A stretch of 64,000 nt of DNA from Rhodoligotrophos sp. CJ14. GTDB lineage: Bacteria > Pseudomonadota > Alphaproteobacteria > Rhizobiales > Im1. The position numbers were made by a program, and so were the translations under genes. Below, one piece after another: positions 38,069 to 44,422 of this stretch. The notes beneath the pieces were generated by a model, which worked only from the letters and a program-made list of their open reading frames with translations, was not told the DNA's origin and did not search any database. The stretch is taken from contig NZ_CP133319.1 in assembly GCF_038811545.1 (NCBI RefSeq), positions 1,889,516-1,953,515 on the forward strand. The letters run 5' to 3'. Position 1 is the stretch's first letter. Each line of letters begins with the position of its first letter.

Positions 38069-38759
38069 GCTAAGCGGCGTCAGCACCAATTACGGCGTCG
38101 TCGCCATGCTGCGCGATGTGTCCCTCAAAGTGGCGCCGGGTGAGCTCGTATGCCTGCTGGGACCGAACGGTGCCGGCAAGACCACCACCTTCCGGGCGGT
38201 TTCGGGCCTCTTGCCGCTGGCCGAGGGTAAGATCGAGGTGCTTGGCGCCGATATCGCGAGCATGCGGACTGAAGCGCTGGCTGGCCGCGGCATCGGCTTT
38301 GTGCCCGAGGGGCGGCGCCTCTTTCCGGAGCTCACTGTCCACGAGAACATCAAGCTCGGCTTTGACGCATCCGGCAGCCGTGAGAATTTCGCCCAGCGCC
38401 TTGACGCAATGGCCGCGCTGTTCCCGCGCATTCGCGAACGCATCAACCAGCAAGCCGGCACGCTGTCCGGTGGCGAGCAGGCCATGGTCGCCCTCGCACG
38501 CGCACTCGTTGGGGCACCCAAGCTCGTCATCATGGATGAACCCTCCCTCGGCCTCTCGCCCAAGCTGATCGACGAATATTTCGAGATCGTCGCCGAGGTG
38601 AACCGGCAGGGCACCACCATTCTTCTGATCGAGCAGAATGCGGAAACCGCCCTGTCGATCGCCCATCGCGGCTATCTCTTGGTGAAAGGCCGCATCGCCG
38701 CCGCCGGCACCTCTCGAGAGCTGCTCGGCAACGATATCGTTCGCAAGCTCTATCTCTAG
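38061..38759 (+). CDS. Branched-chain-type ABC transporter ATP-binding protein, LivF family
   Basis: 232 residues with Walker A GPNGAGKTT, GIGFVPEGRRLFPELTVHEN before the helical domain, signature LSGGEQAMVALARAL and Walker B LVIMDEPSLGLSP. Last gene of the livHMGF run. The following 159 bases hold the promoter region of the manganese catalase gene, so the operon ends here by position. Confidence 0.94.
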   Translation: MLELSGVSTNYGVVAMLRDVSLKVAPGELVCLLGPNGAGKTTTFRAVSGLLPLAEGKIEVLGADIASMRTEALAGRGIGFVPEGRRLFPELTVHENIKLGFDASGSRENFAQRLDAMAALFPRIRERINQQAGTLSGGEQAMVALARALVGAPKLVIMDEPSLGLSPKLIDEYFEIVAEVNRQGTTILLIEQNAETALSIAHRGYLLVKGRIAAAGTSRELLGNDIVRKLYL

Positions 38760-38858
38760 CAGGCGAGCCTCACATATTCCCGATCCTGATCTGCCGGCCA
38801 CCGCCGCTCAGGTCCCATATTCCCTTGCGCCTGACCGCGTCTCCATGCCCGCAAATCC

Positions 38859-38883
38859 GGAACAATTCCCATCACGTGATGTT
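38859..38883 (+). promoter_or_regulatory. EcfG-type general-stress promoter of the manganese catalase gene
   Basis: GGAAC at 38859-38863, 17 bases, then GTT at 38881-38883: the pattern recognised by the EcfG (SigT/RpoE2-type) stress sigma factor of alphaproteobacteria. It lies 35 bases before the catalase start. Its spacer and -10 contain a 12-base palindrome CATCACGTGATG (38870-38881), which could also bind a regulator. A second GGAAC-N17-GTT site occurs before the DUF4142 gene. Confidence 0.6.
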
Positions 38884-38918
38884 GGCGGGGTTATGCTTCA
38901 TCGCGAAGGGAACCAACC

Positions 38919-39800
38919 ATGTTCTACACTGACGGAAAGCTGCAATATCCCGTACGGGTCGAAACGCCCAACCCGGTATTCGCCCGCGCGCTGCAACAGG
39001 CCATCGGCGGGGTCGAGGGCGAGATCCGGGTGGCCATGCAATATATGTTTCAAGCCTTTGGCTCGCGCGGTCCCACGAAATACCGCGACATGTTGCTGAA
39101 CACGGCAACCGAGGAGCTGGGCCATATCGAGATGCTGGCGACCGCGGTCGCGCTCAACCTCGAGGGCGCGCCTCTATCGCTGCAGGAGGATGTATCGAAA
39201 AACCCGGTGGCCGGCAGCGTGCTGAATGGCATCGACTTCCGCCAGTTGCTCTCGACCGGGCTTGCGGCACTGCCTTCTGACGCGAATGGTGTGCCCTTCG
39301 ACTGCTCCCACGTCTATGCCTCCGGCAATATCGCTGGCGACATGTACGCCAATGTCACCGCGGAAGCGACCGGCCGCACCCTCGCCGTTCGCCTTTACAA
39401 CATGACCGACGACCCTGGCATGAAGGACATGCTGTCCTTTCTGATCGCACGTGACACCATGCACCAGCAGCAATGGCTGGCGGTGATCGAAGAGCTCGGC
39501 GGCTCGGCCGCTCAGCTGCCCGTCCCCAACAGCTTTGACCAGAGCAAGGAGCAGTCGGATTTCTCCTATGTCTATCTCGGCCATATGGTGGATGGCTCGA
39601 TTCCGGAAGGCCGCTGGAGCAATGGCGAATCCATTGATGGCAAGGGCCAGTTCTCTGCCCGCGCCTCCGAGCCTCTGGGTGACAAGCCATCCCTCGCACC
39701 GGCCCGGCCTGATAGTGGTGCTCAGACGGATCAGACCTCAAAATCCGGAATGAGTGGTATGATCGGTCAGCTCGAGGGTGCCGTTGAGCGCAATCTCTGA
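38919..39800 (+). CDS. Manganese catalase
   Basis: A 293-residue non-haem catalase of the ferritin-like fold. The di-manganese ligands are expected in GGVEGEIRVAMQYMFQAF, the EELGHIEM helix, AEATGR and RDTMHQQQW, all visible in order. The C-terminal region (SYVYLGHMVDGSIPEGRW) is typical of the KatN type; the last 60 residues are a Ser/Gly/Asp-rich tail. The enzyme breaks down hydrogen peroxide in the cytoplasm. AAGGGA precedes the ATG, and an EcfG-type promoter lies upstream. A tiny membrane protein follows on the same strand. Confidence 0.95.
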   Translation: MFYTDGKLQYPVRVETPNPVFARALQQAIGGVEGEIRVAMQYMFQAFGSRGPTKYRDMLLNTATEELGHIEMLATAVALNLEGAPLSLQEDVSKNPVAGSVLNGIDFRQLLSTGLAALPSDANGVPFDCSHVYASGNIAGDMYANVTAEATGRTLAVRLYNMTDDPGMKDMLSFLIARDTMHQQQWLAVIEELGGSAAQLPVPNSFDQSKEQSDFSYVYLGHMVDGSIPEGRWSNGESIDGKGQFSARASEPLGDKPSLAPARPDSGAQTDQTSKSGMSGMIGQLEGAVERNL

Positions 39801-39872
39801 CCGAGCGTGAACTGGACGGCATCTTCCGCGCTGATAACCCCGCTGAATGGGAACGCTATTGGGAGGAAATGG

Positions 39873-40013
39873 ATGTCGGAAATTCATGGTGAGGATCAGC
39901 CTATTTCATCAGCGCAACGCGCCTTCTGGCTCGGCCTCGGCAGTGGCCTGATCGCGTTGATCGTGCTGGCCGTCATCTTCTTTATGACGCCGGTGCTGAC
40001 TCATACCACTTAG
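39873..40013 (+). CDS. Small single-pass membrane protein (46 residues)
   Basis: The ATG at 39873 has GGGAGG six bases upstream (39861-39866), a strong signal for such a short frame. The protein has a hydrophilic N-terminus (MSEIHGEDQPISSAQRA) and one hydrophobic helix of about 22 residues before a short TPVLTHTT tail. No family is recognised. It is co-directional with the manganese catalase and followed by a strong terminator, so it is probably part of the same stress transcript. A longer frame from 39807 has no ribosome binding site. Confidence 0.65.
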   Translation: MSEIHGEDQPISSAQRAFWLGLGSGLIALIVLAVIFFMTPVLTHTT

Positions 40014-40032
40014 ACGACTGCTCAAACGACTG

Positions 40033-40062
40033 CCCCAGCGGAGGTCATCCGCTGGGGTCTTT
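40033..40062. terminator. Rho-independent terminator between convergent genes
   Basis: CCCCAGCGGA (40033-40042) and TCCGCTGGGG (40048-40057) form a perfect ten-pair stem with a five-base GGTCA loop, followed by TCTTT on the plus strand. It sits in the 65-base gap between the small membrane protein and the convergent NADH dehydrogenase gene and may serve both directions. Confidence 0.85.
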
Positions 40063-40078
40063 CGGCCAGCCCTATCCG

Positions 40079-41383
40079 TTAGCCGCTCGCAGCCTTCGGC
40101 GATCGCCGGCTGACCTCTTTACCGCGCTCTGTCCGCATCATCTCCTCGTGAAGCGGACCACTGATCAGCCGCGCACCACGCGCGCCCGTGAAATAGCGCC
40201 AGAGCCACTGGATCGCCACCAGCATCCGATTCTGGAACCCTATGAGCAGATAGATGTGGATGATCGCCCAGAGCAGCCAGGCGAGCCGCCCCTTCATCCG
40301 CCGCTTGCCAAAGTCGAAAACGGCGGCATGCCGGCCGATCACGGCCGTATTGCCGCGATTATGGAAGCGGAAGGCTGGCATCGGTGCGCCGGATTCGATA
40401 TGCCGTCGGAGCGCTTTGCCCAGATACTCCCCTTGCTGCTTTGCCACTTGTGCAAGTCCCGGCAGTGGTTTGCCATCCTGCATGAACTGCGCGGTATCAC
40501 CGAGCACATAGACATTGTCGAGCCCGCGCACGGACAGATCCGCATTGACCGGAACATGTCCACTGCGGCCGGTGTCGAGCTTGAGCCACGCCGCTGCCGG
40601 TGAGGCTTGCACCCCCGCTGCCCATACCAATGTGCCGGCGGCGATGAATTGGTCTCCCACGAAGACTCCCTCTGCACGAACATCGGTGACCCGCTCATCG
40701 AGAAGCACTGTCACACCAAGCCGTGCGAGCTCCTGCATCGCATAGGCGGAGAGTTCTTCGGGAAAGCCGGCGAGAATGCGCGAACCCGCTTCGATGAGCA
40801 GAACGCGCGCTTTGGTCGGGTCGATCCGCCTGAATTCGCCCGCCAATGTCCACCGGCACAGCTCGGCGATGGCGCCGGCCATCTCGACCCCCGTAGGCCC
40901 GCCGCCCACGATGACCGATGTCATCAGCGCGTTGCAGCGGTCAGGATCATCCGTAAGCTCTGCCAGTTCGAAGGCCCGCAGCAATCGTCCCCTCAATGCG
41001 CGCGCATCTTCGATCGTCTTGAGGCCGGGCGCAAACTGTGCCCATTCGTCATGGCCGAAATAGCTATAGCCCGAGCCTGTCGCGATCACGAGAATGTCGT
41101 AAGGCTCTATGCCTCCCGATGATAGCCGCACCTGTTTCTCATCGAGATCGAGGCCCACCACCTCGTCCATCAGCACTCTGATATTGTTGTGGCGGCGCAC
41201 CAGCCACCGCACCGGTTGGGCAATATCGGCGGGCGAGAGAGCAGCGGTGGCGACCTGATAGAGGAGCGGCTGGAACAGATGGTGGTTCTGTTTGTCGATC
41301 AATGTCACCTCGGCAGAAGTGCCGCCAAGGCCATGGGCACAAGCAAGCCCGCCAAATCCAGCGCCGATGATCACCACCTGCAT
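40079..41383 (-). CDS. Type II NADH dehydrogenase (NAD(P)/FAD-dependent oxidoreductase)
   Basis: 434 residues from the ATG at 41381-41383, preceded by GGAG; a TTG two codons earlier is the alternative start. It has the FAD-binding VVIIGAGFGGLACAHGL, the NAD-binding SVIVGGGPTGVEMAGAIAE and the second FAD motif NVYVLGDTAQF. A C-terminal hydrophobic stretch (GRLAWLLWAIIHIYLLIGFQ) fits membrane attachment. NDH-2 passes electrons from NADH to quinone without pumping protons. It follows the DUF2243 gene in the same direction, and the neighbourhood is otherwise stress-related. Confidence 0.9.
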   Translation of the reverse strand: MQVVIIGAGFGGLACAHGLGGTSAEVTLIDKQNHHLFQPLLYQVATAALSPADIAQPVRWLVRRHNNIRVLMDEVVGLDLDEKQVRLSSGGIEPYDILVIATGSGYSYFGHDEWAQFAPGLKTIEDARALRGRLLRAFELAELTDDPDRCNALMTSVIVGGGPTGVEMAGAIAELCRWTLAGEFRRIDPTKARVLLIEAGSRILAGFPEELSAYAMQELARLGVTVLLDERVTDVRAEGVFVGDQFIAAGTLVWAAGVQASPAAAWLKLDTGRSGHVPVNADLSVRGLDNVYVLGDTAQFMQDGKPLPGLAQVAKQQGEYLGKALRRHIESGAPMPAFRFHNRGNTAVIGRHAAVFDFGKRRMKGRLAWLLWAIIHIYLLIGFQNRMLVAIQWLWRYFTGARGARLISGPLHEEMMRTERGKEVSRRSPKAASG

Positions 41384-41419
41384 GGACAAACTCCGAGCTA
41401 GAGGGACACGGCTGACCGC

Positions 41420-42178
41420 CTACAGCTTGCTCCAGGCAAGGCAGCCCACCCCGAGAAACGAATTGCTGACGAGAACAGCGCCCCTCCCGTACAACGAGTA
41501 TGGGCGCGGCTCCGCATCGTCCCATCGCACCGCCCAAATACCCTTGGTGGTCCAAAGAACTCGGCCTTGCGCCTCCGCAATCGCGGTGAGCGCGGCGGTT
41601 TCGCTCATGCTGCTTGGGAAGACGACGACAGCACTGCGGGCATCCTGCGGCCCGAGAGCCGCCCACCAGCCCGCCGCCGCCGCTACAGCCACAAGACAGC
41701 TCGCGGCAATCCCGGCGCCACGCCCGTCTTCATGAGCCCTGTTGCGCAAAACCCAGCCGAGCACCATCGGCACGAGCCCGAACACGATGACCCAGATGAG
41801 ATCCCAAAGAAGCGGATTGGGACTGTCGAGCTTGATTCGGTGGATGCCGAGAACCCAGTGGGAGAGAACGGCATCGATCACATGCCAAAGACCGAAGCCG
41901 ATGAGCGCACTGCCCACAAGAACAGCACTGCCGGGCATGTCACTCAGTTCACCTTGCCCTTTCAGCAGCAGCACGAGCCCGGCAAATGCGATCACGTACA
42001 TTAGCGCATGAAACAGCCCGTCATAGACGACCTGCGCGCGAAGATCGCCCGCACCCTCGACGAGGCTCAGCAAATGGTGCCACTGCAGGATCTGGTGCAG
42101 CAGGATGCCGTCGAAGAAACCACCGAGACCAAAGCCCAGGAGATAGGCCGCCCAGATGGAGCGGCGAAATCGCGACAT
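41420..42178 (-). CDS. DUF2243 membrane protein with C-terminal extension
   Basis: The first 150 or so residues are a DUF2243 protein with four hydrophobic helices and conserved histidines: GFFDGILLHQILQWHHL, YDGLFHALMYVIAFAGLVLL, GFGLWHVIDAVLSHWVLGIH. This family is found beside cytochrome oxidase genes, and the histidines could bind metal. Residues of about 170-252 form a further soluble or single-helix part (FPSSMSETAALTAIAEAQG) of unknown role, apparently an extension of the usual family. The function is unknown. Confidence 0.85.
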   Translation of the reverse strand: MSRFRRSIWAAYLLGFGLGGFFDGILLHQILQWHHLLSLVEGAGDLRAQVVYDGLFHALMYVIAFAGLVLLLKGQGELSDMPGSAVLVGSALIGFGLWHVIDAVLSHWVLGIHRIKLDSPNPLLWDLIWVIVFGLVPMVLGWVLRNRAHEDGRGAGIAASCLVAVAAAAGWWAALGPQDARSAVVVFPSSMSETAALTAIAEAQGRVLWTTKGIWAVRWDDAEPRPYSLYGRGAVLVSNSFLGVGCLAWSKL

Positions 42179-42213
42179 CGGCCAACACTCCGCTGCAGGG
42201 CCAGCAGCACAAT

Positions 42214-42360
42214 TCAGCCGGTAACCAGCCAGACGATTGTGCCGCCGACCAGGGCCAGTGCCCCGATGAACGAGACGAGCCTTATGGATCCGCTGATGGA
42301 ATCAGAACCGAACACTGCGGTTTCATAGTGATAGGGGGCGTGCAGCTCATTCATCGACAT
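42214..42360 (-). CDS. Small single-pass membrane protein (48 residues)
   Basis: The frame is open from 42453, but the part upstream of MSMNELHAPYHYET looks like read-through of a repeat region. The likely start is ATG at 42358-42360 (or 42354), with a weak CGGGAA site. The protein ends in one hydrophobic helix (VSFIGALALVGGTIVWLVT). No family recognised. It precedes the DUF2243 gene by 35 bases and is probably co-transcribed. Confidence 0.5.
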   Translation of the reverse strand: MSMNELHAPYHYETAVFGSDSISGSIRLVSFIGALALVGGTIVWLVTG

Positions 42361-42429
42361 TTCCCGGAGTAAAAGCCTGGGGCGACCATCGGTTCCACGC
42401 CATAGCGAATGGTCCTTTCCCGGATCGCG

Positions 42430-42529
42430 GAGCGTTTTGAGCGAAGTGGGCACCCGTTCGCGTGAAGAAAATGCGACGAGGCAAAGACTTAGACCCTTTT
42501 TCGTTTCCAGTAAAACCGAAACGAGCTAG
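42430..42529 (+). repeat. Rhizobial-type intergenic repeat element, copy 2
   Basis: Shares the T-GAGCG-AGTG...GTTCGCGTGAAGAAA core with the copy at 4975-5068. The terminal inverted repeat is shortened here to TCGTTTC (42501-42507) and GAAACGA (42518-42524). The closing CTAG of the element supplies the stop codon of the DUF4142 gene (TAG on the minus strand, 42526-42528). Confidence 0.55.
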
Positions 42530-43011
42530 CTGCCTTGCCAGCTCTGGGCCTGCTGCAGGTGCTCCTGGAGCTTGGGCAACATCGCCTTCGCGAATTCCGC
42601 GGCCGGGCCTTTGCCATTGGCCTGAGCGTCGAAGAGGTTGATGGCCTCCTGGTGGCCCTTGATCATCACATCCATGAAGGCCTTGTCGAAGCCTTCATCG
42701 ATCCGCTGCAGCTTGGCATACTCCGCTTGATCTTTGTCGCTCGGTGCAATGGGTGCGGCAACGTCCAGCTGTTGCGCCAGCGCTATGGCTTTCTCATTCG
42801 CGCGGGTGTGCTCAGCGACCATCTTCTCGGCATAGGCGCGCACGGCCTCCTCCTTGGCCTTGTCCAGACCCAGCTTGCCGATGGCGATTTCCGCGAGATT
42901 GATCTCCATGGCCCTGGTCATGAACGTGCGGTCGTCCATTTCCGCCCGGGCGGGCCCCGTAACGATCAGAAGTCCGAAGAACAAGCCGCCCAGCCATTTT
43001 GCTATCGCCAT
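42526..43011 (-). CDS. DUF4142 domain protein (ferritin-like, secreted)
   Basis: This 161-residue protein has a signal peptide (MAIAKWLGGLFFGLLIVTGPARA) and a four-helix DUF4142 domain: RTFMTRAMEINLAEIAIGKL, AYAEKMVAEHTRANEKA, DKAFMDVMIKGHQEAINLF, LPKLQEHLQQAQ. It is predicted to be periplasmic. The function of this family is unknown, though it is common in stress-related loci. An EcfG-type promoter lies 45-69 bases upstream. The last codon borders a repeat element that provides the stop. Confidence 0.88.
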   Translation of the reverse strand: MAIAKWLGGLFFGLLIVTGPARAEMDDRTFMTRAMEINLAEIAIGKLGLDKAKEEAVRAYAEKMVAEHTRANEKAIALAQQLDVAAPIAPSDKDQAEYAKLQRIDEGFDKAFMDVMIKGHQEAINLFDAQANGKGPAAEFAKAMLPKLQEHLQQAQSWQGS

Positions 43012-43055
43012 CCTCGCCTCCTGAATTGGCGTATCGCCCGCTCTACGGCAGGGCT

Positions 43056-43080
43056 AACCAAAGCGGGACGGCTCGGTTCC
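43056..43080 (-). promoter_or_regulatory. EcfG-type general-stress promoter of the DUF4142 gene
   Basis: On the minus strand GGAAC (43080-43076) is followed by 17 bases and GTT (43058-43056). Spacing and both boxes equal those before the manganese catalase gene. It would give a leader of roughly 35-40 bases before the ATG at 43011. Confidence 0.6.
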
Positions 43081-43126
43081 GCTTTGGTCTGGAGGCAGGC
43101 TGATTGGGAGGCTCGAAGCCCGTGTT

Positions 43127-44422
43127 TTAGCGGGTCGAAGCCTCGAGCACGTCGTCAAAGGTGCGCAGGCCCGTACGAGGCGCCGAGACCAGCACCGCCA
43201 TGTTGCCGGGCCGATGCTCGTTCTTCCACATGCGGGTATGCGCCTTGGGGATGTCGAGCCAGGAGAACACTTCCGACATGCAGGGATCGATCCGCCGGTT
43301 GATGACCAGCTGGTTCGCTTGGGCTGCCTGCTTGAGATGCGCGAAATGCGACCCCTGGATACGCTTCTGATGCATCCAGACATAGCGCGCATCGAAGGTG
43401 ATGTTGAACCCGGTGGTCCCGGCACAGAACACCACCATGCCGCCGCGCTTCACCACGAAGCAGGAGACCGGGAAGGTTGCCTCCCCCGGATGCTCGAAGA
43501 CGAAATCAACATTCACGCCCTTGCCGGTAATGTTCCAGATCGCCTTGCCGAACTCGCGCACATTCTTCAGCCAGTTGGCATAATCCTCCGTGCCGACCTG
43601 CGGCATCTGCCCCCAGCAATTGAAGTCCTTGCGGTTGATCACGCCGCGCGCGCCGAGCGACATCACATAGTCGCGCTTATCCTCTTCCGAGATCACCCCG
43701 ATGGCGGATGCCCCTGCTGTCGCGCACAGCTGCACCGCCATGGAGCCGAGCCCGCCGGAGGCACCCCACACCAGCACGTTATGCCCGGGCCTGAGAATAT
43801 GCGGGCGATGGCCGAACAGCATGCGATAGGCCGTGGCGAGCGTAAGCGTGTAGCAGGCGGATTCTTCCCAGGTGAGGTGCTGCGGCCGCGGCATCAATTG
43901 GCGCGACTGCACCCGGCAGAATTGAGCGAAGGAGCCATCCGGCGTCTCATAACCCCAGATGCGCTGGGATGCCGAGAACATCGGGTCGCCGCCATTGCAC
44001 TCCTCGTCATCGCCATCATCTTGATTGCAATGGATGATGACCTCGTCGCCGACCTTCCAGCGCTTCACCTTGGAGCCGACCGCCCAGACGATGCCGGACG
44101 CGTCCGACCCGGCGATGTGATAGGGCTGCTTATGAACGTCGAAAGTGGAAATGGGTTTGCCGAGCCCGGCCCAGATCCCGTTGTAATTGACGCCGGCGGC
44201 CATCACCAGCACCAGCACCTCGTCGCTGTCGATCTCCCAAGTGGGCACCACCTCCAACTGCATGGCCTCTTCGGGCGGCCCGTGCCGGTCGCGCCGGATC
44301 ACCCAGGCATGCATTTTCGAGGGCACATGGCCCAGCGGAGGAATTTCGCCGATATCGTAAAGGTCTTTCTTCGGTGCATTGATATTGGCGGCATTGGCGA
44401 CCACAGAGGCGACTGCGCTCAT
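43127..44422 (-). CDS. ccr: Crotonyl-CoA carboxylase/reductase
   Basis: A 431-residue member of the medium-chain dehydrogenase/reductase superfamily. Ccr reductively carboxylates crotonyl-CoA with NADPH and CO2 to ethylmalonyl-CoA, the key step of the ethylmalonyl-CoA pathway for acetyl-CoA assimilation. Features are LYDIGEIPPLGHVPSKMHAW at the start, MAAGVNYNGIWAGLG (with the CO2-binding asparagine region), the NADPH loop VWGASGGLGSMAVQLC and VDFVFEHPGEATFPVS. Length and sequence fit Ccr rather than ordinary quinone reductases. It diverges from ethylmalonyl-CoA mutase, the enzyme that acts later in the same pathway after an epimerase. Confidence 0.96.
   Translation of the reverse strand: MSAVASVVANAANINAPKKDLYDIGEIPPLGHVPSKMHAWVIRRDRHGPPEEAMQLEVVPTWEIDSDEVLVLVMAAGVNYNGIWAGLGKPISTFDVHKQPYHIAGSDASGIVWAVGSKVKRWKVGDEVIIHCNQDDGDDEECNGGDPMFSASQRIWGYETPDGSFAQFCRVQSRQLMPRPQHLTWEESACYTLTLATAYRMLFGHRPHILRPGHNVLVWGASGGLGSMAVQLCATAGASAIGVISEEDKRDYVMSLGARGVINRKDFNCWGQMPQVGTEDYANWLKNVREFGKAIWNITGKGVNVDFVFEHPGEATFPVSCFVVKRGGMVVFCAGTTGFNITFDARYVWMHQKRIQGSHFAHLKQAAQANQLVINRRIDPCMSEVFSWLDIPKAHTRMWKNEHRPGNMAVLVSAPRTGLRTFDDVLEASTR

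Follow-up and report, generated by a model that had tools for sequence, protein, structure and literature searches.

Do two GGAAC-N17-GTT sites at either end of a small gene cluster in Rhodoligotrophos sp. CJ14 act as promoters of the general stress sigma factor EcfG, and which genes would they control? The window analyzed here is a 64,000-nucleotide stretch of contig NZ_CP133319.1 (positions 1,889,516 to 1,953,515, forward strand). In it the sites occupy 38859-38883 on the plus strand (P1, GGAACAATTCCCATCACGTGATGTT) and 43080-43056 on the minus strand (P2, GGAACCGAGCCGTCCCGCTTTGGTT). P1 ends 35 bp before the ATG of a manganese catalase gene (38919) and P2 44 bp before that of a DUF4142 gene (43011); motif, spacing, and genes are exactly those that a first-pass annotation of this DNA had described. 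Both carry the -35 element GGAAC and, at N17, the -10 element GTT, fitting the broad EcfG motif GGAAC-N17-20-GTT (PMC6599016). We conclude that P1 and P2 are very probably EcfG promoters; both look genuine because in many other bacteria the motif again precedes genes of these kinds.

EcfG, NepR, and PhyR are all encoded in this 4.81-Mb genome: its sole NepR match adjoins a sigma gene of the extracytoplasmic function (ECF) type, with phyR divergent. The sigma gene is called EcfG here from its place beside nepR and phyR; no model shown for it carries that name. Between the two regulator genes lie a GGAAC-N16-CGTT site that points to phyR and a GGAAC-N17-CGTT site that points to nepR, as would be expected for an autoregulated system. 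In the established cascade, stress leads to phosphorylation of PhyR, which sequesters NepR and thereby frees EcfG. Freed EcfG would direct RNA polymerase to P1 and P2, the first driving the catalase gene and perhaps also a small membrane open reading frame (ORF) behind it, the second driving DUF4142 and probably a longer run of genes.

EcfG-type sites across the genome

How often does the motif occur in this genome, and where? We scanned all 4.81 Mb for GGAAC-N17-GTT and found 114 matches, about twice the 60 found with a wrong spacing (GGAAC-N22-GTT). The pattern read backwards matched 212 times (vs. 114), and the backwards form of the GGAAC-N16-CGTT class 80 times (vs. 38); since that pattern is a different sequence, raw counts against it were set aside as a control in favor of the N22 spacing together with position relative to genes. 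With "upstream" defined as within 250 bp 5' of a called gene on the same strand, and with the surroundings of all 38 + 76 + 60 + 29 sites taken and none dropped, 43 of the 114 N17-GTT sites lay upstream of genes, compared with 6 of the 60 control sites. This was the very scan that the first-pass annotation had named as a check on its EcfG reading. By class, the upstream sites amounted to 20/38 for N16-CGTT (Fisher P = 5e-6 against the control), 23/76 for N16-[AGT]GTT, to which P1 and P2 belong (P = 0.006), and 15/29 for N17-CGTT (P = 3e-5). Without P1 and P2, the N16-[AGT]GTT result changed little (21/74 upstream, P = 0.009). The annotation had also held that equal frequency in coding DNA would speak against its reading; 56 of the 114 matches fell outside called genes, compared with 14 of the 60 at the control spacing.

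The motif was also enriched at promoter-like distances. A total of 21 of the 114 sites, compared with 1 of 60 control sites, lay 25 to 50 bp before a called start, where the density of control sites and an assumed total of 4500 genes would predict 0.73. P1 and P2 both fall within this bracket, in line with the annotation's view that their distances from the start codons are sensible. The motif call made by eye is thus quantified, and the 21 sites are strong EcfG candidates.

What do the genes behind the upstream sites encode? Besides the three core proteins, 17 proteins were scanned, five of which had no Pfam match. Matches among the others include CsbD, Ku, GT20, DUF892, DJ-1/PfpI, and BrkB, as well as alpha-amylase, DUF202, DUF3096, DUF3309, and DUF326; of these, CsbD, Ku, GT20, DUF892, DJ-1/PfpI, DUF3096, DUF3309, and DUF202 are kinds usual in stress regulons. 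Within the window itself there are four exact N17 matches. The two besides P1 and P2, at 24726 (+) and 58643 (-), are both within called coding sequence, and one of them is the window's sole CGTT-bearing match. A looser N15-19 pattern matched nine times in the window against 4.3 expected, a count reached by 4 of 100 shuffles and weak if taken alone.

The motif before catalase and DUF4142 homologues

Is the motif found before the same genes in other bacteria? Among the best 80 manganese catalase loci—more exist, and records close to the window's genome may be absent from the sample—34 had it within 150 bp upstream. The reverse strand gave 6, shuffles a mean of 0.24 (maximum 2 in 300), and a 150-bp stretch within the gene 0; windows further upstream of the catalases contained it in 20 of 2595 cases. 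The spacing was specific, with N17 in 32 of 80 loci and no more than 3 at any other spacing from 5 to 39. In the 34 footprints the base before GTT was G in 18, T in 12, C in 3, and A in 1; because it is mostly G or T, a non-C element such as that of P1 is the common form before manganese catalase genes. From this spread, we do not treat a C before GTT as defining for putatively EcfG-dependent promoters.

The footprint was unevenly distributed. It was present in 1 of 26 Acetobacteraceae-type loci (among L059-L096), a grouping that we made from genus names, and in 33 of the other 54. NepR was sought for 44 of the 80 loci, and the genomes of 41 could be searched. The motif preceded the catalase gene in 20 of 25 genomes with a NepR match above 40 bits and in 1 of the 16 others; in the 15 Acetobacteraceae-type genomes searched, NepR scored at most 31.2 bits or gave no match.

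DUF4142 genes gave a similar picture. The sample comprised 34 loci of the order, this genome excluded, drawn from the best-scoring matches and a second set; tblastn placed 28 of them and missed six. The motif lay within 150 bp upstream in 21 of the 34 (18/28 and 3/6, respectively), against 4 on the reverse strand and a mean of 0.07 in shuffles for the 28. Together with the genome-wide scan, the catalase and DUF4142 footprints support the annotation's EcfG reading. Two domains whose function is unknown are thereby connected with the general stress response, DUF4142 directly and DUF2243, discussed below, by linkage.

Two converging units and their histories

Which genes could P1 and P2 serve? 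The sites face each other and so stand at the heads of two converging units. Behind P1 lies the manganese catalase gene (38919..39800, +; 293 aa; PF05067 at 264.4 bits against a cut-off of 27). Its product scores 322.5 bits against the NCBIfam equivalog NF052557, below the cut-off of 350, and is assigned to the manganese catalase family by its Pfam match, the exact equivalog not being claimed. Next comes the 46-aa membrane ORF (39873..40013, +), which is kept in a congener, G002 (61% over 36 aa), where the catalase gene is absent at this place. Behind P2, on the minus strand, are the DUF4142 gene (42526..43011; PF13628, 115 bits, cut-off 27), a membrane ORF of about 48 aa (42214..42360; kept in G002, 57%), a DUF2243 membrane protein gene (41420..42178; 135 bits, cut-off 25), and a type II NADH dehydrogenase gene (NDH-2; 40079..41383; Pyr_redox_2 and NDH2_C, both over cut-off). 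The contents of the interval are those that the annotation had named: NDH-2, DUF2243, and two tiny membrane proteins. The DUF4142 protein is likely exported, judging by eye from an N-terminal hydrophobic stretch, and has no second match in this genome besides itself at E <= 0.001.

How far would transcription from P2 extend? It probably covers the whole run from DUF4142 through the small membrane protein and DUF2243 to NDH-2, because this gene order is common to G002. There the order is livG-livF-small ORF-NDH-2-DUF2243-small ORF-DUF4142-ccr, the same as here without the catalase. Alternatively, the small membrane ORF, DUF2243, and NDH-2 may have a promoter of their own, leaving DUF4142 as the only gene of P2; this arrangement, which would be compatible with EcfG reading P1 and P2, strikes us as possible if somewhat improbable. 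It would suit the 165-bp gap behind DUF4142, which holds the core of a dispersed repeat (42439-42476) that could weaken read-through in this strain, and a terminator-like consensus match overlapping the stop of DUF4142 (5 such matches in all, against 2.8 expected). The motif is also rare directly upstream of the other two genes in the order, at 3 of 21 DUF2243 genes and 2 of 28 NDH-2 genes (of 29 taken, one was truncated by the end of its contig), so that NDH-2 and DUF2243 are not borne out as general EcfG targets there, and their EcfG control here would rest on read-through from P2. Against a separate middle unit, G002 has the same genes in the same order with a gap of 49 bp, and P2 is the sole motif match in the 12 kb examined there; in another genome (G025, locus L340), an EcfG-like site likewise heads a run of ORF, DUF2243, small ORF, and NDH-2. 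Read-through from P2 to NDH-2 remains the arrangement we consider probable.

Do the two units share a history? P2 is kept in G002 within like flanks, 31 bp before DUF4142, its spacer longer by one base; the DUF4142 proteins are 68% identical. On the catalase side, the aligned flanks stop at 38755 and restart at 39855 of the window, and in G002 they are 101 bp apart; the gap implies that the catalase gene and P1 were either gained here or lost in G002. The nearest named catalases, from genera such as Mangrovicella, Antarcticirhabdus, and Ancylobacter, are 79 to 82% identical, and 5 of 40 relatives searched have a homologue—G002 (46%), G001 (35%), and three others. This distribution tends to favor a gain here. 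The other catalase of G002 also has an EcfG-like site. The first-pass annotation had spoken of a stress island; two EcfG-type units are indeed present, but they differ in history, one being a run shared with G002 and the other a catalase segment missing there. Here, then, an existing EcfG-type unit has beside it a catalase segment that carries an EcfG-type promoter of its own.

Does the grouping recur elsewhere? Near the manganese catalase genes of the 80 loci, raw counts by tblastn (E <= 0.001) gave NDH-2 in 9 loci, DUF2243 in 9 (two of these matches being short), and DUF4142 in 5 loci, and the motif lay within 450 bp upstream of these neighbors in 5/9, 4/9, and 3/5 cases, respectively. In Mesorhizobium sp. 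BR1-1-16 (L069), an EcfG-like site is followed on one strand by manganese catalase and then DUF4142, with DUF2243 opposite; unlike here, the gene order is different and the 12.8 kb around the catalase gene gave no NDH-2 match. L069 and locus L302 of genome G277 are identical over the 3411 bases of L302 and count as one instance. Such groupings are thus found again at a minority of loci, with varying gene order. We tentatively suggest that manganese catalase, DUF4142, DUF2243, and NDH-2 may form, within the general stress response of alphaproteobacteria, a loose and repeatedly reassembled redox module whose genes would move with or into EcfG promoters and become neighbors in varying orders, with DUF4142 as one of the order's core families of EcfG targets. 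Its sense could lie in the removal of hydrogen peroxide by the catalase combined with re-oxidation of NADH by NDH-2 without proton pumping. For DUF4142 and DUF2243, no established function is known to us.

Several smaller features were also noted. A protein of about 100 aa containing PLGTDDEAAG, without a Pfam match, is encoded behind an EcfG-like site elsewhere in this genome (L029:1161-1460, -), and a similar-looking one of about 100 aa with the same string occurs at L302:2524-2844 (-) beside DUF2243, DUF4142, and manganese catalase; the two perhaps represent an unnamed stress-protein family. At 39797-39892 (+), a 31-codon frame with a CTG start has a four-base overlap with the catalase stop (LTERELDGIFRADNPAEWERYWEEMDVGNSW); the catalase loci yielded no convincing homologue of it. 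A perfect 9-bp inverted repeat (CCAAAGCGG...CCGCTTTGG, 43058-43087) lies across P2, folds somewhat better than shuffles (z = -1.98), and could be a terminator of ccr or an operator; it is not kept in G002, whereas P2 is. A third promoter 5' of the small membrane ORF (GGAAC-N16-CTTT, minus strand, GGAAC at 42396-42392) was considered and rejected for its poor -10 element and for having no match in the G002 stretch. The dispersed repeat has 92 to 97% matches in six further loci of the examined parts of this genome, which amount to four distinct places (three coincide), one of them near ecfG (L007 41-78); the gap that holds it folds no better than shuffles (z = 0.94).

Weighing the EcfG assignment

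How firm is the assignment of P1 and P2 to EcfG? Several observations weigh against it. Both sites miss the strict GGAAC-N16-CGTT consensus of Rhizobium etli (PMC3892343), with T at P1 and G at P2, and in this genome their class is the weaker one, with 30% of sites upstream of genes compared with 53% for CGTT. The examined stretch held no such motif in 46 of the 80 catalase homologues and 13 of the 34 DUF4142 homologues, and motifs directly before DUF2243 and NDH-2 genes are rare, as noted above. N22 was the single spacing control used, and the split between upstream and coding sites rests on a simple codon-based gene caller. The 40-bit NepR line was our own choice, 9 of the 16 genomes under it still pass the Pfam NepR cut-off, and the relation of NepR strength to the motif is confounded by phylogeny.

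Could another sigma factor read these sites? GGAAC-like -35 elements are common to several ECF groups, so a different ECF factor with a similar -35 preference might in principle recognize P1 and P2; we regard this as very unlikely, since the identical motif and spacing occur between nepR and phyR here and the motif before catalase genes tracks NepR matches above 40 bits. That the GGAAC and GTT elements stand 17 bp apart by chance and the genes are read by the housekeeping sigma factor is likewise highly improbable: two more N17 matches do lie in the window's coding DNA and 6 of 60 control sites are upstream of genes, but footprints precede homologous genes in tens of genomes, P2 is kept in G002 at 68% protein identity, 21 sites stand 25 to 50 bp before starts against 0.73 expected, and a consensus sigma-70 scan of 38740-43150, which real promoters can escape, gave one site, inside DUF4142, with 1.2 expected. 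EcfG remains, by a wide measure of confidence, the factor to which we assign both sites.

How do P1 and P2 compare with described EcfG systems? Sphingomonas melonis belongs to another order than this organism, and "Predicted outer membrane protein" is presumably the COG name of DUF4142 proteins. In S. melonis Fr1, the EcfG motif GGAAC-N17-20-GTT, like that of our sites, occurs upstream of coding sequences genome-wide and is concentrated within 100 bp before EcfG-regulated genes, and a top EcfG-regulated "Predicted outer membrane protein" (#1281; log2 ratio -7.3) has GGAAC...CGTT 27 bp upstream (PMC6599016). Unlike in that regulon, the EcfG dependence of P1 and P2 is predicted from sequence, and the catalases named in the passages considered are not stated to be manganese catalases (PMC6599016). 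The EcfG1 promoters of R. etli share the GGAAC -35 element and a spacing of 16 to 17 bp, and differ in their GGAAC-N16-CGTT consensus from the TGTT and GGTT of the window sites (PMC3892343). In the literature searched, EcfG, general stress response, and manganese catalase never appeared together, nor did DUF4142, general stress response, and alphaproteobacteria, and we make no claim that either link is unpublished; among the matches listed in further searches, there was no mention of DUF4142, manganese catalase, or DUF2243. EcfG promoters are a known kind, to which this set of targets adds a new example.

Might some EcfG-type sites work in both directions? Among the papers listed by a literature search for bidirectional EcfG promoters, those on EcfG contained neither promoter term; one on the ECF factor HrpL contains both "bidirectional promoter" and GGAAC (PMC5263251). 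Self-complementary GGAAC-N17-GTTCC sites form 11 pairs in this genome (22 of the 114 matches), compared with 3 (6 of 60 matches) for N22. Such sites are possible two-way EcfG promoters, their abundance being not clearly above expectation. Three of them, at 148097-148123, 158208-158234, and 2825147-2825173 of this genome's contig (G000:C1; L132, L134, and L020), lie in gaps between divergent called genes, with fitting distances to both; one, for example, is flanked by a gene of the alpha-amylase family and a gene of the sensory-rhodopsin-transducer family.

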